IMG/VR virus record: IMGVR_UViG_3300005613_000249
Span: 1 to 32,800 of that record
DNA from: a virus
DNA: 32,800 nt
Reading direction: 5' to 3' (one strand)
In this document: positions 2,332 through 31,250 of the stretch, in pieces
Numbering within the stretch: position 1 is the first letter of the stretch
Layout of the letters: each line of letters opens with the position of its first letter
The notes under the pieces: generated by a model
The model's database searches: none
Seen by the model: only the letters and a program-made list of their open reading frames with translations
What the model was told of the DNA's origin: nothing
Made by a program: the position numbers and the translations under genes

Positions 2332-3860
2332 TAAATCTTCTCCCAAGAATTTTTATCTTTAGGATCTCCTCCTAAAAATTTATATCCATTCTTAACAGTT
2401 CCAACCTCTAACATAGGTCTTCCAATACTTTGTGGAGCGGGTCTCTGATAATTATTCTTCACCATTGAATCTACATAATCATCTACTTTCTTAAAACCTT
2501 GTTTTTCTAATTGTGCTACTTCATTTTTAGGTACTAATTGCATCTCCCCATTCTTATCAACTAAAGTAGTTACTTTGCCTTGTAAAATAGGATTATCTTG
2601 CTCAAATCCATCAAGATTTCCATGTTTAGCTACATAAGCTTGCTGTGCTTCAGCTACTGCCCTATCTTTTAATAAGGTACTTTTAGCACCCATTAAAATA
2701 TTTAAGTTTACTTCGTCATCATTCGATAAAGAAGCTTGGGTTGATTCCCATGCCCTTCTTTCAGCATCCGAGTCAACTGCTTTACTCATTCCAGAGAAAG
2801 TTGAAACCATGTTCTTTAAATTAATATCCCTAAATTTAGCTTCTAAATTCTGAGCGTCTTGAGAAAGATATTTCTTCATTCCAAAACCAGTAGCTAATGG
2901 ACCAGTACCACCAAGAGACTCCCTACTATATTTTAATTGAGAATTAAGAGCATCTTCTACCTTGTCTAAATTCTTAGAAATTTGAGGAATAGCTTCTTGT
3001 GTTGCAGCGTATCTTTCTGCTTGTTTCTGTTCAGTTTTCTTTCCAAATTCTGATGGTTTTCCAGTAATAGCTCTTTCTCTTTGTTCATAATTCCTTTGTT
3101 TCCAATCTTCATCACTCTCATATTTTTTCTTCTTCAAAAATTGATCTATATATACTTTAGCTTGAATTGCATTTGTATCTTCAGGTAGATTAAGTCCTAA
3201 TTCCTTAGCAAAATCTCTAGCTGCGGCGGATTCTTTAGATTCCGGATTCGATGAAGCTATTTTATCTTTAAGAATCATGGAATCTAATTCTCTTTTTCCC
3301 ATGGCATCATATTCTTTTAAGTATTCACCTTCTGAAGCTAAAGCTTCTTTATAAGCTTCTCTACCTTCTTTTTTCTGGTCTTTAATACTTCCCATGGCTT
3401 GAGCAGTATAACCACCTTTCTGACCAGCCATACCAGCCATGGTATCAGCAAATGCTCCTAACCCTTTAGCTAGACCCCCACGCCATCCTTCACCTGCTTC
3501 CTGTGATTTTTTATAAGCTTTTTCTGCTTCTGATAATTTATCTCTTGATTTAGATATTCTAGATAATAGATCCGCTTTATACTCATCCATTACCCTTTCT
3601 CTAGCATCTTTATTAGTACCTATATCTGCAGGTAATTCGCCATATAAAAGACCGTCATCACCCTTCTCCATAGCTCCAATCTCATCATCATCCCAACCAG
3701 AGAAAGGATCCTCTGCAGACATTAATTCCTGAGTAGAAGTTGTCATATCAGGTTCTTGTAATTGAGGTAAATCGAGTTGTTGACCAGATTGAAGTTGCTC
3801 TGAAATTTTTTGTCTTTCAAGTTCTTCAAGAATTTTTGGATCAATACTAAAATTATTCAT
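2331..3860 (-). CDS. Probable internal virion/ejection protein, long helical
   Basis: The 509-residue product starts at ATG 3860, overlapping the upstream stop as TAATG and preceded by AGGA. It is rich in Lys, Glu, Gln and Ala. Predicted coiled coils cover roughly residues 95-125 (KSRDKLSEAEKAYKKSQEAG), 150-190 and 260-310. A Gly/Ala stretch (GGLAKGLGAFADTMAGMAG, about residues 127-147) could associate with membrane, as in other ejection proteins. The N-terminal 70 residues are acidic and Gln-rich and resemble a capsid- or scaffold-binding tail. No catalytic motif was found. The tight coupling to both neighbours argues for production in fixed ratio. The assignment is by composition and position. 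Confidence 0.55.
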   Translation of the reverse strand: MNNFSIDPKILEELERQKISEQLQSGQQLDLPQLQEPDMTTSTQELMSAEDPFSGWDDDEIGAMEKGDDGLLYGELPADIGTNKDARERVMDEYKADLLSRISKSRDKLSEAEKAYKKSQEAGEGWRGGLAKGLGAFADTMAGMAGQKGGYTAQAMGSIKDQKKEGREAYKEALASEGEYLKEYDAMGKRELDSMILKDKIASSNPESKESAAARDFAKELGLNLPEDTNAIQAKVYIDQFLKKKKYESDEDWKQRNYEQRERAITGKPSEFGKKTEQKQAERYAATQEAIPQISKNLDKVEDALNSQLKYSRESLGGTGPLATGFGMKKYLSQDAQNLEAKFRDINLKNMVSTFSGMSKAVDSDAERRAWESTQASLSNDDEVNLNILMGAKSTLLKDRAVAEAQQAYVAKHGNLDGFEQDNPILQGKVTTLVDKNGEMQLVPKNEVAQLEKQGFKKVDDYVDSMVKNNYQRPAPQSIGRPMLEVGTVKNGYKFLGGDPKDKNSWEKI

Positions 3861-5056
3861 TATTTTTCCTCCACCTTTTTCAAGCGGTCATTTAATCTGC
3901 CAACACTTGCTAAAACAGCAGGTAATATCTCTGCATTATTTAATACTTTTAAATTATCTTCCTCACCCTTTAAATCCATTACCGCTTCAGGAAGAATATC
4001 TTCTATATCCTGTGCCATTACTCCAACTTTCTTTCCAGGAGTACCTATCCCTTTTTCAATATCTTCATCCTTATACCTAAAAGAATATCCAGTTAAATCT
4101 TCTAATAAAGCATCAATCTCTTCTGGATTCATTTTAATATCTTTCTTGACATCTTCATCAGATGCTGCAATAATAGCTCCTGCTCCTAACAATCCACTCA
4201 TTCCACCCATGCCAACTTGATTTTGTTGACCAATCATCTGAGCACCAGCTTGATATTGTCCTGCTCTACCAGAAGCAATAGCCATTTGGTTATTGAATTG
4301 TTGCTGAGCCATCTGATTTCTTTGCATTGCTTCTTGATTAGATAACCCAACATTTTGATTCATGAGGTCTTGTCGTGCTCTTAAATTAGCTTCTCTAGCA
4401 GCATTCTGTGCTCTTGCCCTCTCAGCTAACTGAGCTTGTGTATTCTGCACATTAAATTGCTCCAACATTTGCTGTGCCTGAGCAATATTTGCTTGCTCCC
4501 CATATTCCTGACTTCTTATACTCCCCGCAAGTTGTCCTGCTTGTTCCAAAGCCTGAATTTTTCTTTGAGCAGCAATCCCAGCAATTTCAGTATCACGAGC
4601 ACTTCTTCGAGAAGCACCTTCTTGCTGACTGATTAATTTTTGTGCTTGTTCCAAACCACTTCCAGATACACCTCGCATCTGAGCTTGCTGAATAATAGCT
4701 TCTCTTGATCCTCTTTCAGCTACACCTTCTTCTTGTGCAATCCTTGCTAAATCCGCACGATCTTCTGCAGTCATCCCCGTTTTGGATAGCTCTTTCATTC
4801 TTTCCAGAGTTTCCATCTGTTGAGCTTTTAAACGTGGGTCTACATAAATATCTTTATAAGCATTCCCTTGGAGTTTTATGATTTCAGCAAATTCTGGTGT
4901 GATTTCTCCAGCAGAAACTAAACGCTCTAATTCTAAAGGAGAAAGTTGAGGAATTTCCATGCCCGCAAACTGTGCTTGAGCCATCCCCATTTGAGCTGAC
5001 TGACCACCATAGTCAGTAATTCCTAGTGTATCAGTTACTGTTTGGAAAATTCCCAT
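3860..5056 (-). CDS. Virion protein with C-terminal S74 intramolecular chaperone domain
   Basis: This 398-residue protein has a Gln/Ala-rich helical body (residues about 60-290, full of short QAQ/AQ runs) and a compact C-terminal domain from about residue 297. That domain has the Peptidase_S74 signature: SDEDVKKDI, then LTGYSFRYKD, KKVGVMAQDIEDILPEAV and a final leucine-rich helix. The catalytic pair would be Ser299 and Lys304, five residues apart as in the family. In tailspikes and fibres this domain helps trimerise the upstream part and then cuts itself off. Here it sits on a protein resembling an ejection or tail-needle component instead of a fibre. The start at ATG 5056 follows AGGAG. The domain call is confident; the role of the body is not. 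Confidence 0.75.
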   Translation of the reverse strand: MGIFQTVTDTLGITDYGGQSAQMGMAQAQFAGMEIPQLSPLELERLVSAGEITPEFAEIIKLQGNAYKDIYVDPRLKAQQMETLERMKELSKTGMTAEDRADLARIAQEEGVAERGSREAIIQQAQMRGVSGSGLEQAQKLISQQEGASRRSARDTEIAGIAAQRKIQALEQAGQLAGSIRSQEYGEQANIAQAQQMLEQFNVQNTQAQLAERARAQNAAREANLRARQDLMNQNVGLSNQEAMQRNQMAQQQFNNQMAIASGRAGQYQAGAQMIGQQNQVGMGGMSGLLGAGAIIAASDEDVKKDIKMNPEEIDALLEDLTGYSFRYKDEDIEKGIGTPGKKVGVMAQDIEDILPEAVMDLKGEEDNLKVLNNAEILPAVLASVGRLNDRLKKVEEK

Positions 5057-5332: not shown

Positions 5333-5665
5333 TTACTCCATTAGTTTACGATAAAAGTAGATTACACCGTTATTAAAATGACTATACTTAAATCTGTTTC
5401 TTAACATCATGTACATAGCACGTTCTGGATTTGTTTGATAAGTTTCTACATTACAAGTCACCTTATCACATTTATTAGCAATACCTATTTCCCCAATCTT
5501 GTCATACATCTTTTTAAAAGCTAATCCAGTACGCTTATCCGGTTTTACATACATATCACCAATATCTAATATATGTGATACTGGATATATCCTATAAGTA
5601 AATATTCCATCTTCAGTCTCTAGAGTCTCATACTCTTTTGTCTCTTTTAGATATTTAGCAAACAC
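5333..5665 (-). CDS. GNAT-fold acetyltransferase-like protein
   Basis: This 110-residue protein starts at GTG 5665, supported by GGAG at good spacing; it overlaps the end of the Hint-tailed gene by 11 nt. The order of segments matches a compact GNAT fold: ILDIGDMYVKPDKRTGLAFK (beta-4 and the acetyl-CoA loop region), a helix, KCDKVTCNVETYQTNPERAM, then LRNRFKYSHFNNGVIYFYRK as the closing strands. The usual Q/RxxGxG/A pyrophosphate loop is weak (KRTGLA), so acetyl-CoA binding is uncertain. Small GNAT-like proteins are common among tail and internal virion genes of podoviruses, where they may be structural. The fold is likely; activity is unproven. Confidence 0.6.
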   Translation of the reverse strand: MFAKYLKETKEYETLETEDGIFTYRIYPVSHILDIGDMYVKPDKRTGLAFKKMYDKIGEIGIANKCDKVTCNVETYQTNPERAMYMMLRNRFKYSHFNNGVIYFYRKLME

Positions 5666-7586
5666 TCTTTAGTTCTCCATGGTTTAAAACAGTTAAACAT
5701 TGATTTAAATCTAAAGATTGTGAATTAGGTACTTCATCATAATCAGCTAATACAACTCCATGTGAAATCATCACATGGTTTTCACATGATAAAGAATAAA
5801 CTTCTGTTACATTATGATCATATACTACCGATGCTTTTCTAGAATTTTCTATTCTCTTCCAGACTCCATCTTCTTTAACAGCATGTTTTCCTGTCACCCA
5901 AATATAAGAGTTTTCTTCATCAGTTGGATAAGAATAAAGAACATCTTCCAAGATATGTTTACTTACAGTGTATACCAGTCCACCTTCAAATAAAATATCC
6001 CCTAATTGAATATCTTTTATTTTCTTATATTTTCCATCCATCATCTTAAATTCTGAATCACCATCGAAACAGGTTACTACATAACCTATTGCCCCACCTA
6101 CAACTGCTCCTGCGGGTCCACCTACTACTCCACCTGCAACAGCTCCTATTATTACTCCTTGACTTTGTTTCTTTTTAGCTTCTTCTTCAGCTTTTCTTGC
6201 TGCTTCTTCAGCAGCTACCGCTGCTAATCTAGCAGCTTCCGCTGCTGCCGCATCTTCTCTAGCTTTTTTTGCTTTAGCTACATCAACTTGAAATGCTTCT
6301 TTATTAAAATCTGCAGCAGGATCTATATAATCTTTATATTTTCCAGCCTGTTCAGAAAAAGGAGTCAAGGTACCAATGCCTCCAGTTAATTCTTCTAATG
6401 CTCTCATTCGAGCATAGTCATCAGCAGAAGCAACATTAGCAGCTTGAATATTCTGATAATCCTGTGGATTCGTAAAATATTTTGATCCACTCGCTAAAAT
6501 ACCTTCTTGAGTACCATAAGTTTTATTAATATAATCTAAATAACTTTCATAATCAGATTTAGCTTTAGCAGAGACTTCGGAAGTATAATCTCTTATCTCT
6601 TGTTCTTCTTTTGTTAGATCAAACTGTTTCCTCATTGCTTCTTTAGTAGCTTTAGTTGTTTCTAATGCTTGCTCATATTCTTGTTGAGACATCTCTCCTA
6701 GACCCTTAATCTGACCTTCAAGTCCAAGACCAGCATCAGCAGCAGCTTGTAGCTGAGCATAAGCTTCTTCATTTCCTGTTAATAGAGCTTCATCTAAAGC
6801 TAGAGCACCTTTAGAAAATCTTCCTGATGGGTTTTCATAAGTTCTGGTCAACAATTCTTGACGACCAGTAATATCTCCGATTAGTCCTGCTGTCCTTTTA
6901 GCTTTTTCTGTATCTCTTAAAGCTTGGGCATAATAATCTTGAGAATATATATCAGTTGGTCCACCATATTCTGCACTATATTGTTTTTTAAATGCATCTG
7001 CATAGGAGAGTTCTTCTTGTGGTGTAAACCCAGCTACATATTCATCATATAGTTTCTGATAATCTTGTTCTTGAACAGGAACTTCACCAGTTTGAGGATA
7101 ATTAGCACCATACCAATCTTCATATTCTTGAGCTTTAGTAGCTGGTTGGTATACACCAGATAAGAAATCTTCTGCTGCACCAGTTTGATATGCTTGTTGA
7201 TCAACTAATGATTCTGTAGCTCTCTTATATAACTCTTGATCTAATTTAGTAGTACCAGCACCAACTGCACTTTTATATTTTTCTCCAGCACCGGTCAGGG
7301 ACTCCTGTGCTCCAGTTATATCCCCAGATATAACACCAGCAGTTTTACCAGCTAACTCTAAAGCTTTCTGTTTGTTCGCTTCCATGTACTTTTGCTGAGT
7401 AGAAACATCTTGTCCCCCAGCAGGAGCAGCAGCTTGACCAGTTCCAGTTTGAGTTACATCTTGGGCACCACCCCCAGCTTGTAGATAATCTCCAGTTTGT
7501 GAAATCTGTTTTACACCTTCACCTTCTGTACCTTGTAAAACATCTTCTTCCTTTTCTTCTTCTAATTTATTAGCTTCATATGCCAT
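5655..7586 (-). CDS. Internal virion/ejection-like protein with glycine zipper and C-terminal Hint (intein-like) domain
   Basis: This 643-residue protein starts at ATG 7586 behind AGGAG. Residues 1-450 are Gln/Gly/Tyr- and Glu-rich with helical stretches. Residues about 445-475 are an Ala/Glu/Lys coiled coil. Residues 479-505 are a Gly-zipper membrane-type segment (IIGAVAGGVVGGPAGAVVGG…). Cys506 opens a 138-residue Hint domain: CFDGDSEFKMMDGKYKKIKD with GDIL, block-B T565-G-K-H568, and the closing VYSLSCENHVMISHGVVL. The Cys1 nucleophile and TxxH are present. The usual C-terminal His-Asn is replaced by Ala-Asp (about residues 614-615), followed by a 28-residue tail. N-terminal thioester cleavage therefore looks possible, but splicing does not. 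The location suggests a protein ejected or membrane-inserted during DNA entry, perhaps released by self-cleavage. Confidence 0.75.
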   Translation of the reverse strand: MAYEANKLEEEKEEDVLQGTEGEGVKQISQTGDYLQAGGGAQDVTQTGTGQAAAPAGGQDVSTQQKYMEANKQKALELAGKTAGVISGDITGAQESLTGAGEKYKSAVGAGTTKLDQELYKRATESLVDQQAYQTGAAEDFLSGVYQPATKAQEYEDWYGANYPQTGEVPVQEQDYQKLYDEYVAGFTPQEELSYADAFKKQYSAEYGGPTDIYSQDYYAQALRDTEKAKRTAGLIGDITGRQELLTRTYENPSGRFSKGALALDEALLTGNEEAYAQLQAAADAGLGLEGQIKGLGEMSQQEYEQALETTKATKEAMRKQFDLTKEEQEIRDYTSEVSAKAKSDYESYLDYINKTYGTQEGILASGSKYFTNPQDYQNIQAANVASADDYARMRALEELTGGIGTLTPFSEQAGKYKDYIDPAADFNKEAFQVDVAKAKKAREDAAAAEAARLAAVAAEEAARKAEEEAKKKQSQGVIIGAVAGGVVGGPAGAVVGGAIGYVVTCFDGDSEFKMMDGKYKKIKDIQLGDILFEGGLVYTVSKHILEDVLYSYPTDEENSYIWVTGKHAVKEDGVWKRIENSRKASVVYDHNVTEVYSLSCENHVMISHGVVLADYDEVPNSQSLDLNQCLTVLNHGELKSVC

Positions 7587-8022: not shown

Positions 8023-10585
8023 GACCTGCCTCCCTTCCTTTCATTGGAACTCTTTCAGAAATCAGTTCAAATTGTGAAGATACTCCTGATAAAGCAAATG
8101 GACTATATATATTACTTGTAGATGCTACAGAAAAACTAATACCAACACATCTCTGTTTATTTCTAGGGATTCCTACTCTTAAAGGTTGAAAATAGGTGGG
8201 ACCGGTCCCACCCCAAGGAGTGTTACCCCAATTATTTTGACCCCACAATCCAATATTATAAATTTGTGAAGAGGTACTCTCATATCCAGGTCTTAACGAA
8301 GTTTCATAACCTATTGTCAATTCTGCAGTAGTATCATTTCTAAAAAAGAATAAAGCTTCTCTAAATTGTTTGATCATTCCGGGATTCCCCGCAGTGTTCA
8401 TAACATATTTGAGTTTTACCTGAATTGGCTGGAAAATTACGGAAGTATTAACAGGATTATTATCAAATTCTCTACTACTAGTAACATTAATAGTAAGCTG
8501 TTTAGTATCATAATCTATATCAATTATTTTTCCTAGGGATTGTTCCTCTGTTGCAACATCTGTTTGTACTAACCAGTATCCAATAGCTACATCATCAGTT
8601 GTATCTACCTGAACTACTTTATAAGTACCACTATCTCCAATAATTAACTCAATAACAATTTGATAATCAATATCTACAAAGTCTCTAACAGTAAAAGTTT
8701 TTCTCTCCTGCATTAACCAATACTGTTCATAACCCGTTTCTTTTCCACCTAAGTAAAGTTTATCGTTTGTAGGATTGACCAAACCACTTGTAGCTGCGAA
8801 AGTATGTCGCACCCAAGTGTTTGTGAAAGAATTATAAACATAGCTCTGCACAGGGAAAGAATGAGTATTAGCATTAACACAATATAACATATAACTTCGT
8901 TCCGACTCATAAGAAACACCAAAAGTTGTGGTAGCAAAGTTATCAAATTGTATTAATTGTAATAATTCTTGCTCAATATTTCTTGATACTACTGCTACTC
9001 CTGATTCACTTACTGAAATGACTCCCTGAAGAGACATACAGAAAATTGTATTATTAAACTGTACTGCTGAATCAGGTGCTATTAAAGCTGTGGTACTATC
9101 ATGTAAAGTAGCTCTAAAGTTATTTATATTCTCCCCAGAAATTTTCCAAATTGAATCCTCTTTGAAAACAAATAAAGATTCTCTCAAATCTAATATTCTT
9201 AAAATAGCTTTATTCGCTGACCCTACATCAATATAGTTAAGTAGAGGCACCGATTCAGGCTGTTGATTTTTTGAAATGTATATTCTATTTACTTTAGCAT
9301 CATTTGAAGAACTTTCAGTTGTACCTGAAGAAGGTAAAGTTGGATTCCAAGCATCTCCATTTGAACTTGTTAAATAATATTGATCATCTCCGAGACTTCT
9401 AGCCTGAAGCATAATTTGACCAGGTAGATCTTCATACCCAGACATATAATAGGCATATACTTTTGTATTAGCATCATACTTATTTATTACTCTAACTAGA
9501 GAAAGTGCTGTAGCTTCAATATCACTCGCTGGAGAACCAGTGTCTACTAATTCAAAATATCCACTAGCTGAATTCTCTGTTGCTTTAGCAGTATAAACTA
9601 CATCTGCAATAGTTATAGTATCTTCTTCATCAAAACCATCTGATCCAGTACCCAGCAAAGTTATATTAAAAGTATGTTTTGTCTGAGTATTAGCATAAAA
9701 CATATGATCTTTAAAAACGGTCATATCCTTACAAAGAGGGGGTTCATAATTAGCATTTATAGCACCCTCTTGACTAGGAGATATATAAAGAAAAGTACCT
9801 TTTAAAGTATCAGATACATTATCCAAAATTGTAAATTCATTAGCAGCTACTTCACCAGAGGAAGGAGTACCAGATAAAACTAGTTGGAGTTCATCAGTAG
9901 GTTCATCAGTAATCGTCTCGGTCATGTTTGATCGATAAATCTGATATTTATGATTAGTAGTAATTTCACTAGGTATAAGAAATGTTAAAGCAACATTACT
10001 TGATGACCCGGTGTTATTAATAACAACAAATCTACTTGAAGGTGCTCCTATTACTAAGTTCTCATTTGCATCTTCTCTCGTCCACACCATTCTGTAGGCT
10101 ACTGCAGTACCCGCGGTAAACCACCCTGTTCCACCAGAAGCACTACCAAAACCATCTAAACTAGGAACTACCCCAGCATTATAAAACTCTGAATCTACAG
10201 CATCTAATTTTTTTACTCCAGAAGAAGTAGTAACATATAAATTCTGGTTTTCTTCTACTCCTTGCATTTTATATGCAGAAGGACTTACAAATGTTCCAGT
10301 GTATGCAGTCCAAGAACTACCCCCACCCACATCTCTTGAAATTTGATTACTATGATGTACTAGAATTGTGTCTTGATAGGAATAAATATTTCCAATTACT
10401 CCATTAGCAGAATCTAAATTTAAGTAGTTATTATATTTTCCAAATCCTCTTCTACTTTCAGCAACATTATCTTTATTTATAACAATGTTATCAGCATAAG
10501 AGAGAGCACCATCAATTAAATCTTGATTTATAGTATTTGGATTAGTAATCAATCCTTTAATTTTGAGACTTAGGGTTTGACTCAT
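8015..10585 (-). CDS. Tail nozzle / tail tubular protein B-like
   Basis: This 856-residue, beta-rich protein starts at ATG 10585, overlapping the adaptor stop as TGATG with GGAG upstream; a TTG one codon earlier is less likely. The N-terminus (INQDLIDGALSYADNIVINK and AESRRGFGKYNNY) is typical of podoviral nozzle proteins, whose first strands describe a solution list then a self-similar beta propeller. Later stretches such as PPLCKDMTVFKDHMFYANTQ and SLFVFKEDSIWKISG repeat blade-like patterns. The size agrees with T7 gp12-type and P22 gp10-type tail proteins. It follows the adaptor gene directly, as in those phages. It would cap the short tail and hold the DNA until ejection. The family call rests on pattern and order. 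Confidence 0.65.
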   Translation of the reverse strand: MSQTLSLKIKGLITNPNTINQDLIDGALSYADNIVINKDNVAESRRGFGKYNNYLNLDSANGVIGNIYSYQDTILVHHSNQISRDVGGGSSWTAYTGTFVSPSAYKMQGVEENQNLYVTTSSGVKKLDAVDSEFYNAGVVPSLDGFGSASGGTGWFTAGTAVAYRMVWTREDANENLVIGAPSSRFVVINNTGSSSNVALTFLIPSEITTNHKYQIYRSNMTETITDEPTDELQLVLSGTPSSGEVAANEFTILDNVSDTLKGTFLYISPSQEGAINANYEPPLCKDMTVFKDHMFYANTQTKHTFNITLLGTGSDGFDEEDTITIADVVYTAKATENSASGYFELVDTGSPASDIEATALSLVRVINKYDANTKVYAYYMSGYEDLPGQIMLQARSLGDDQYYLTSSNGDAWNPTLPSSGTTESSSNDAKVNRIYISKNQQPESVPLLNYIDVGSANKAILRILDLRESLFVFKEDSIWKISGENINNFRATLHDSTTALIAPDSAVQFNNTIFCMSLQGVISVSESGVAVVSRNIEQELLQLIQFDNFATTTFGVSYESERSYMLYCVNANTHSFPVQSYVYNSFTNTWVRHTFAATSGLVNPTNDKLYLGGKETGYEQYWLMQERKTFTVRDFVDIDYQIVIELIIGDSGTYKVVQVDTTDDVAIGYWLVQTDVATEEQSLGKIIDIDYDTKQLTINVTSSREFDNNPVNTSVIFQPIQVKLKYVMNTAGNPGMIKQFREALFFFRNDTTAELTIGYETSLRPGYESTSSQIYNIGLWGQNNWGNTPWGGTGPTYFQPLRVGIPRNKQRCVGISFSVASTSNIYSPFALSGVSSQFELISERVPMKGREAGLG

Positions 10586-13767: not shown

Positions 13768-16287
<2,520 letters not shown>

Positions 16288-27164: not shown

Positions 27165-27836
27165 TTAAAGAAGGGGTTTAGGAGCTAGTCCAAATCGCCA
27201 GTCCTGAGTCGTTATATATTTAATTTCAGATTTAAAGTATTCCCGTACAGTTATATCTAAATAAGACTTAGAGAATTTACAACCATCTTGCCAACTTAAT
27301 AGTCCCCCGGGTTTGATGCATCTAAATATTTCTGATATCCATTCCTGCTGTTCTTCTTTAATAGCTTCCGAAGTGAGATCTAGGATTATATACTCATAAG
27401 TATGATCAGGGGTATTTTTAAGGACTTTTAGACCATCATCACAAATAAATTTCCATTCGTTAGTTCTTTTGTATATAGATTCATTCCAGTCAGAAAAGTG
27501 TGTATCTATCAAGTGGACAGCTTGTGGGTCTATATCTACTCCGGTAATATTTTTCCAACCTCTTCTTTGTAAGAGGTTAATAGAGACACCTTCTCCAGAT
27601 CCTAGTACTAGGACGTGTTCAGAGGGGTGAGGTTTGTACCAGAAGACCAGATTCTCATGATACTCCTTATAACATCTCTCCGAGGATTGTAGCTCATTAT
27701 TCATAATCAAAGATTTTCCCTGATCCTCAATATCAGCAATTAAAATTTCCTGATAAGGAGTAACTTCATGAGCTATCACTCTTCTTACTTTTAAATGTAT
27801 TTCGTGACTGTCCTGAATTACTTTAGCGTATAACAT
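27165..27836 (-). CDS. speE: Spermidine synthase-like aminopropyltransferase
   Basis: This 223-residue protein starts at ATG 27836 in a TAATG overlap with the SpeD-like gene. Its plan follows polyamine aminopropyltransferases: an N-terminal beta part with the substrate strand (KSLIMNNELQSSERCYKEYH; Gln50, Tyr59, His60, Glu61), LVLGSGEG (residues 77-83) for the nucleoside, VDID (100-103) for the ribose, CDDG (132-135) for adenine, ILDLTSE (151-157) at the active site and the family ending DWRFGLAPKP. It would move the aminopropyl group from decarboxylated AdoMet to an amine. The usual acceptor-site D-x-x-D-P has become D-L-T-S-E, and the Asp of the E-R-D-E motif is Cys55, so the acceptor may differ. 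It is somewhat shorter than cellular enzymes (about 280). Confidence 0.8.
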   Translation of the reverse strand: MLYAKVIQDSHEIHLKVRRVIAHEVTPYQEILIADIEDQGKSLIMNNELQSSERCYKEYHENLVFWYKPHPSEHVLVLGSGEGVSINLLQRRGWKNITGVDIDPQAVHLIDTHFSDWNESIYKRTNEWKFICDDGLKVLKNTPDHTYEYIILDLTSEAIKEEQQEWISEIFRCIKPGGLLSWQDGCKFSKSYLDITVREYFKSEIKYITTQDWRFGLAPKPLL

Positions 27837-29846: not shown

Positions 29847-30104
29847 ATGAACACCTTTTTACAAAATAAAGCTAACCTAAAACTCTTAAGTATCTATACG
29901 CAAATTGCAGAAGATGTTTTTTTTAAAATTCCCGAAACTATCCTTACTATTAGAAAGGATAACTTAAGTAATGCAGAGTATAAAGAATATCTACTTTTCA
30001 TTGAAGCAACTCTTAAAAGAAAATATATAGTATCTAGAATGCCCATGGTTTCGATGTATTACTATATACTAAAAGTTAAAAGAAATGGATTAGGAGAAGA
30101 ATGA
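29847..30104 (+). CDS. Small helical protein, unknown
   Basis: This 85-residue protein starts at ATG 29847, 2 nt after the previous stop and without a clear ribosome site, so translation is probably coupled. It is helical and basic (NLKLLSIYTQIAEDVFFKIP, EYKEYLLFIEATLKRKYIVS). Its stop overlaps the start of the methyltransferase gene. The function is unknown. Confidence 0.6.
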   Translation: MNTFLQNKANLKLLSIYTQIAEDVFFKIPETILTIRKDNLSNAEYKEYLLFIEATLKRKYIVSRMPMVSMYYYILKVKRNGLGEE

Positions 30105-30736
30105 TGCAATATCCCACACAACAATTAATAGATAACCGAAACAAATTTTTAGCTAAAGAAGAGGAAATTAAAAATTATGTTGCATCTAAAGATGATATAG
30201 TAGCACTTCATTTAGGATGTGGTAACAAGATTTTTAAGGGGTTTAGTAATATTGATAAGTACTATAAGGAGACACGGGTTCTTAATCAAGATATGTACAA
30301 ATTAGATTTTTCTAATAATTCTGTTAATCTTATTTTTAGTTGCCATGCTCTAGAGCATTTGCCCATTAGACATGCTAAGTTAGCAATTAAAGAGTGGTAC
30401 AGAATTTTAAAAGAAGGTGGGTTACTATTTTTAGCTGTACCTGATTTAGAAACGATATGTACTTTACTAATAGATAGGGATCTACCAGCGGATCATAGAG
30501 AATGGTTTGTGTATACTTTATTTGGTTATCAGGTCGACCCCGATAAAAAGGACTTAAATTTGGATGCTCCAGTCGATCTGGGGCAATTTCACACATCAGG
30601 GTATACTGAGTATACCCTCTCTCAAGAATTCTTCCAGAATGGCTTCTATATTAAAAATCTATATAGATATGACGGCTGGTCTACACCTTCCATATTTGTA
30701 GAAGCTGTTAAAGGTAGTAGTCATGGCGCACTATGA
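30104..30736 (+). CDS. SAM-dependent methyltransferase (COG4627-like)
   Basis: This 210-residue protein starts at the second of two adjacent ATGs (30104; 30101 is also possible), which stands 7 nt after AGGAG. Class I methyltransferase features are clear: motif I HLGCGNKIFKGFSNID, the acidic turn D-x-Y-K-L-D-F, then IFSCHALEHLPIRHAKLAIK and EWYRILKEGGLLFLAVPD. This arrangement is typical of predicted methyltransferases tied to glycan or surface-polysaccharide clusters. The substrate cannot be read from the sequence. It overlaps the next methyltransferase gene by 14 nt, so the two probably act together. Confidence 0.85.
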   Translation: MQYPTQQLIDNRNKFLAKEEEIKNYVASKDDIVALHLGCGNKIFKGFSNIDKYYKETRVLNQDMYKLDFSNNSVNLIFSCHALEHLPIRHAKLAIKEWYRILKEGGLLFLAVPDLETICTLLIDRDLPADHREWFVYTLFGYQVDPDKKDLNLDAPVDLGQFHTSGYTEYTLSQEFFQNGFYIKNLYRYDGWSTPSIFVEAVKGSSHGAL

Positions 30737-31250
30737 ACAAATTCAATTCTGTTTAAGAGTAAAACAGAATTTCCCCGAACATTTTAAAAATAAGAGAGTG
30801 CTCGATGTTGGCTCGCTTGATATTAATGGCAATAACCGTTATCTATTTAAAGACTGTATCTATACAGGTCTAGACATTGCACCCGGTAAAAATGTAGATA
30901 TTATTTGTCCTGCTCATCTACATAATGGAAAATATGACACCATTATAAGCACTGAATCTTTTGAACACGATATATATTATAAGGATAGTTTAAAAAATAT
31001 TGTTAAGATGCTAGAACCTAATGGGCTGTTTTTGTTTACCTGTGCCAGTGAAGGTAGACCTGAACATGGCACTAGGCGTTCAGAACCATCTGCTGCCCCC
31101 CTTTTAAGTGGGGAATGGGCTGATTATTACAAAAATCTCACCGAAGAAGATATCAAAGAAGCACTAAATGAATTATATTTAATCTTTAGAAAGTATGAAT
31201 TTTCTCGGGAAAAACCGGATGATCTTTACTTTTACGGGATTAAATACTAG
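30723..31250 (+). CDS. SAM-dependent methyltransferase (Methyltransf_11-like)
   Basis: This 175-residue protein starts at ATG 30723. Motif I is VLDVGSLDINGNNRYLF, followed by YTGLDIAPGKNVDI, a YDTIISTESFEHD segment and ILKMLEP-like KMLEPNGLFLFTCAS. The tail GRPEHGTRRSEPSAAPLL is a loop seen in methyltransferases of environmental phages and sugar clusters. Its first bases overlap the preceding methyltransferase gene. The substrate is unknown; a surface glycan or nucleotide sugar fits the pair better than DNA, because no target-recognition domain is present. Confidence 0.82.
   Translation: MAHYEQIQFCLRVKQNFPEHFKNKRVLDVGSLDINGNNRYLFKDCIYTGLDIAPGKNVDIICPAHLHNGKYDTIISTESFEHDIYYKDSLKNIVKMLEPNGLFLFTCASEGRPEHGTRRSEPSAAPLLSGEWADYYKNLTEEDIKEALNELYLIFRKYEFSREKPDDLYFYGIKY

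Follow-up and report, generated by a model that had tools for sequence, protein, structure and literature searches.

Hint domains are known as inteins, as Hedgehog processors and as toxin-release devices. In Hedgehog proteins, only the first N–S shift of the chemistry is used (PMC7664689), and in many inteins the N-terminal junction is where the block-B Thr/His and the block-F Asp exert their effect (PMC4031507). The fold itself is not new in phages because annotated Hint proteins already exist for giant viruses as well as for uncultured phages. In the open-access literature, we found no description of a family of Asp-ending Hint domains at the C-termini of virion proteins, nor of a GNAT-fold gene linked to such a family. 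The family described below is therefore apparently an undescribed one.

The Hint domain of the 643-residue carrier

The window, i.e., the whole stretch of 32,800 bases analysed here, is an IMG/VR viral contig whose minus strand encodes proteins with family matches to terminase, portal, SU10-type adaptor, collagen-like fibre and internal-virion-type proteins. An 857-aa protein of the phrog_511 type and another of 141 aa come before an ORF of 643 aa (5655..7586, minus), which was assigned to the structural module because structural genes surround it; by gene order, its product is probably a virion or ejection protein. The same module contains a 398-aa protein (3860..5056, minus) ending in an S74 chaperone domain (residues 299–359; 3980..4162, minus; Pfam PF13884, E = 4.3e-11). 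Elsewhere in the window, an 833-aa collagen-like protein (13768..16269, minus) with many GxTG-type repeats is a probable fibre, and methyltransferase-like proteins were seen near the replication genes (27165..27836, minus; 30101..30736, plus), together with a third candidate recognized by eye only (30723..31250, plus).

Residues 506–643 of the 643-aa ORF (5655..6071, minus, including the stop codon) are a Hint domain, well beyond chance. Single-sequence Pfam matches of the window protein were under the cut-offs (Vint, E = 1e-4; Hint, 0.02), with a Vint (PF14623) score of 22.7 bits against a gathering cut-off of 27. When 17 relatives were searched, Hom_end_hint matched 10 and Vint 9 of them, Hint was also matched family-wide, and the family profile matched the solved inteins NEQ068 (8.8e-5) and PI-SceI (7e-4). 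The AlphaFold model of the domain (pLDDT 94.3, pTM 0.85) was structurally matched to BIL2 (Z 12.9), the MchDnaB-1 intein (12.7), Hedgehog 1at0 (11.8), Clostridium BIL (11.7) and Vint (11.4). The original prediction of a Hint domain at the end of this carrier is hence upheld by a confident model, whose fold is Hint with Z of 11–13 to BIL2, inteins, Hedgehog and Vint.

In addition to the fold, the domain possesses the residues of the Hint superfamily, namely the predicted block-A nucleophile Cys506 (6069..6071, minus) and the block-B sequence Thr565-Gly-Lys-His568 (TGKH; 5883..5894, minus). Cys506 directly follows a Gly-zipper segment (residues 477–505; 6072..6158, minus), as originally read, at which a weak C19orf12-type glycine-zipper Pfam match was obtained under the cut-off. 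The C-terminal end is of another kind. Inteins and BIL domains end in His-Asn (Asn or Gln in inteins), and Ala614-Asp615 is located there instead. Asp615 (5742..5744, minus) occupies the position of the terminal intein Asn in the structural alignments, model residue 110 being aligned with residue 145 of MchDnaB-1, 125 of gp41-1 and 198 of GyrA. Where inteins have Cys/Ser/Thr at +1 and a C-extein, there is Tyr616 (Tyr in most relatives) and a short conserved tail that reaches the C-terminus 28 residues past Asp615. This tail contains a helix (residues 627–636; 5679..5708, minus; model helix 122–131) with a conserved Leu-Asn motif. With both the terminal Asn and a following Cys/Ser/Thr missing, the chemistry would be confined to the N-terminal side, as was first proposed.

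A family of C-terminal Hint domains in phages

A tblastn search of 50,697 phage records with the window protein and Hint domains returned no family member. The window protein alone matched no viral contig, and motif patterns were therefore used to find relatives. L031, a close relative, was the one found with a DNA pattern of the Cys motif, and a later profile search gave L036, while a block-B DNA pattern gave at least 119 viral loci, with at least 116 family members. PHROGs held no family matching the Hint domain. A stricter pattern applied to 257 Gb of prokaryote contigs yielded a single true member, which comes from a marine metagenome bin, against the 116 or more viral ones, so that the family is apparently phage-borne; a type-II GNAT gene lies about 1.2 kb downstream of this single member. 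Matches of the pattern in Treponema genomes were rejected as family members, being RNA polymerase beta' by eye.

Among the matches listed, Cys is present in all but two of the 119 loci (by our own extraction), and nearly all block-B loci carry a Hint domain of approximately 110–150 residues at the extreme C-terminus of a larger protein. Position 506 is Cys in 116/116 aligned relatives among the matches listed, a count to which the search pattern, having no Cys, did not contribute, and which was aided by anchoring every extracted domain on a Cys. The Cys506 named in the original prediction is thus invariant in these relatives. Also among the matches listed, Asp615 is Asp in all 115 aligned relatives long enough to include the position, and Gly535-Gly536, Tyr553 and His568 are kept in all or nearly all of the 116. 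In 34 representatives of less than 70% identity, Cys506, Phe507, Gly535-Gly536, Tyr553 and Asp615, all of them outside the search pattern, are present without exception (34/34), and Asn635 of the C-terminal helix is present in 29. The [ST]GxH sequence is common to the relatives, but it belonged to the pattern that retrieved them; independently of that pattern, the block-B motif was seen in L031 and L036. As judged from the aligned sequences, the terminal His-Asn is replaced family-wide by (Thr/Ala)-Asp, which is followed by the conserved helix. The loss of His-Asn recorded for the window protein was accordingly real and yet understated, since an Asp conserved in 115/115 relatives does not represent random decay.

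The Hint domain is always C-terminal among the family members used, and their carriers are mutually unrelated; judged by eye, some are fibre-like and rich in Gly, and others have a beginning that is baseplate-like. The three nearest relatives (contigs L057/L157, L068/L158 and L111/L159) share the gene order, the Gly-zipper and the Hint domain with the window. The only deposited relative of the window neighbourhood in the 50,697 phage records is a Silvanigrella phage, in which no Hint domain was seen in the protein at the corresponding place and no GNAT gene after it. In L043, L069, L106 and L109, as in the window group, the Cys is preceded by a Gly-zipper, and the other lineages have poly-Gly or Gly/Ser linkers or a short amphipathic helix there. 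A Gly-zipper was for this reason rejected as a family-defining feature. The carrier had been described as a glycine-zipper virion protein; its place in the structural module stands and makes it probably a virion protein, whereas the Gly-zipper is not a general partner of the Hint domain. The suggestion that the domain serves to free a membrane segment is not supported as a general role for the same reason, and such release would be at most a local version of a wider function. Separately, tandem Hint pairs were seen in L042, L061, L067, L148 and L149, where the first domain has a canonical VVHN end, followed by Lys, and the second is of the Asp-ending type.

The GNAT-fold partner gene

The conserved Asp615 with its C-terminal helix and the wide family go beyond what was originally predicted, and so does a linked GNAT-fold gene. 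Usually, a small ORF lies directly after the Hint gene and overlaps it, the commonest overlap being 11 nt, as is the case in the window (5333..5665, minus; 110 aa, GTG start). The GNAT-type protein of the window is 36% identical to the L057 neighbour, which matches the L048-type GNAT profile at 3.5e-9, and the L048 copy is itself Acetyltransf_1 above the Pfam cut-off. On these sequence matches, the window copy and the L048-type partners (type I) are GNAT by homology. Most other phages have a type-II partner of 141–165 aa without a convincing Pfam match, of which a model (pLDDT 90.2) gave Z of about 14–16 to RimI, Ard1 and AAC(6'). As modelled, this partner has a GNAT fold, whose nearest structural neighbours are N-alpha-acetyltransferases and aminoglycoside acetyltransferases. 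The acetyl-CoA loop [R/Q]xxGx[G/A] is absent in 81/82 type-II sequences, degenerate by eye in the window copy, and intact in L048, L051, L059 and L089.

Among the matches listed, 106 Hint loci extend 500 bases or more downstream, and a GNAT gene was found at 84 of them, many of which are closely interrelated. For a linkage control, phages were retrieved through a scaffold-like gene, whether or not they had Hint, the best 80 were kept and pooled with Hint loci holding the same scaffold-like gene, and near-duplicates were removed. In this sample, GNAT was present in 7/8 phages with Hint and in 0/31 without it (p = 5e-7). Furthermore, L065 (Hint and GNAT) and L162 (neither) are 92–97% identical over long flanking DNA on both sides; their carriers agree as far as the linker and diverge beyond it, and the similarity of the DNA returns immediately downstream of GNAT. 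This comparison and the control counts together indicate that the Hint–GNAT pair acts as a single exchangeable end module. A constant association was rejected, as GNAT is absent in L068 and L111/L159 of the window's own group, and also in L046, L060, L096, L104, L125 and others. Hint without GNAT in two of the four phages of the window group means that the partner is not strictly needed.

Other arrangements were observed at these loci. In L044, L092, L100 and similar phages, genes resembling an Asp/Asn beta-hydroxylase and an SDR by eye lie between Hint and GNAT. In L162–L168, L170, L174, L215 and L216, a domain of approximately 97 residues is located at the junction where L065 has Hint; it ends the proteins before the scaffold-like gene, and its Cys is the first residue after a Gly-rich or polar linker (CVIATHxxxxGGF...). 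This CVIATH domain had no NCBIfam match. Another Cys-led type (VCTEMYRQ...) was seen in L178 and others.

Proposed processing and comparison with known systems

We consider it probable that the domain is a one-sided, N-terminal-acting Hint autoprocessing domain, which forms a thioester and is then released, thus being a removable C-terminal cap. The Cys506 thiol would attack the Thr505 carbonyl with the aid of Thr565 and His568, giving an N–S acyl shift. Splicing from this thioester is not expected, as the terminal Asn, its preceding His and a C-extein are all missing. Instead, water or another nucleophile from outside would break the thioester, the invariant Asp615 probably standing in as acid/base, and residues 1–505, with the Gly-zipper at their end, would be freed from the 138-residue Hint fragment. 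In the simplest role, the cap would mask or solubilise the protein end in assembly and be shed on maturation. The Hint fold, the residue conservation and the C-terminal placement on unrelated carriers argue for this mechanism; the cleavage, its nucleophile and timing, the cap role and the part played by GNAT are inferred. Counting against it, the block-F Asp is not conserved (position 598 is Ser/Val/Thr/Asn among the aligned relatives), and the Gly-zipper is not general. An S74-type domain is known to detach itself (PMC7824862), and the S74-ended protein at 3860..5056 in the same phage makes the shedding of C-terminal domains a plausible theme.

The linkage with GNAT also bears on a Hedgehog-like acyl transfer, in which an amine or alcohol resolves the thioester and the carrier C-terminus is attached to another molecule. 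We regard this as rather unlikely. A virion protein, lipid, glycan or small molecule would be the candidate acceptor, and the GNAT-fold protein would present or activate the nucleophile. Such a scheme agrees with an overlapping gene gained or lost together with Hint, with a fold that handles acyl passage from thioester to amine and yet is missing its acetyl-CoA loop in 81/82 type-II sequences, and with a conserved C-terminal helix that could serve recognition; it is opposed by the several members having Hint without GNAT, of which the window's own group contributes two, and by no adduct being known. An idle or merely structural Hint domain, staying attached as a binding or folding module, seems quite improbable. 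The block-F Asp and the terminal His-Asn are indeed absent, and in L035 a separate ORF between the Hint and GNAT genes (8425..8880) is a second Hint copy, with other residues in place of Cys, block-B His and Asp alike. Their joint loss in that copy suggests that the three residues are one functional set, and the strict conservation of Cys and Asp in the 116 relatives listed, across very divergent phages, would be unexpected for an idle domain. It is doubtful that the two genes constitute a two-component system for ligating virion proteins, in which the Hint thioester is the acyl donor and the GNAT-fold partner, having given up acetyl-CoA, links the carrier to an amine of the host or of a further virion component. 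Inteins ending in Asp exist, and Asp615 occupies the position of the terminal intein Asn, but C-terminal cleavage or splicing of the intein/BIL type with Asp for Asn is very improbable, since no His precedes it, Tyr rather than Cys/Ser/Thr comes next, and in place of an extein the model shows a conserved helix in the downstream tail.

Following the favoured cap mechanism or a transfer, Hint-bearing phages may use self-cleavage or partner attachment in building or firing the particle. If active, the family brings thioester chemistry into virion maturation and could provide protein engineers with new C-terminal domains that form thioesters, while its loop-less GNAT-fold neighbour raises the testable question of acyl transfer from a protein thioester.

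Among known systems, the best structural match is BIL2 of Tetrahymena thermophila (6y75/6tmm; Z 12.9), followed among BIL domains by that of Clostridium (2lwy; Z 11.7). The phage family shares Cys1 and block-B Thr/His with BIL domains and, by analogy, would also share a cleavage-type chemistry without splicing, but it ends in an invariant Asp instead of His-Asn, has a conserved helix and lies at the extreme C-terminus. The Hedgehog autoprocessing domain (1at0) has the same fold (Z 11.8), the C-terminal position and presumably the restriction to the N-terminal acyl shift in common with it, whereas the phage domain has a short 28-residue tail and no known sterol-recognition region. Vint (Pfam PF14623, 8r2c) comes closest of the Pfam families by sequence, at E = 1e-4, and its fold matches at Z 11.4; the window protein, however, is below the Pfam cut-off, and the phage family has no VWA domain, is borne by phage carriers and has the C-terminal Asp motif. 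Inteins such as PI-SceI, DnaB, GyrA and gp41-1 share the fold, Cys1 and block B, but the phage domain has no terminal Asn, +1 nucleophile or C-extein, and no homing endonuclease within its 138 residues. The fold is also shared with the annotated viral Hint proteins of uncultured Caudovirales, giant viruses and Providencia phage PSTNGR1, although the one cultured case examined, PSTNGR1 (L247), has a different end. In this T7-like phage (L247 2675..5507), a fibre gene that is S74-ended by eye comes before a gene for a protein whose domain is of another kind, though probably Hint. The S74 (endosialidase-type) chaperone has an unrelated fold and a Ser/Lys chemistry without a thioester, yet it is likewise a C-terminal self-releasing domain of structural phage proteins, to which the Hint domain of the window phage, where an S74 domain also occurs, may be a functional analogue.
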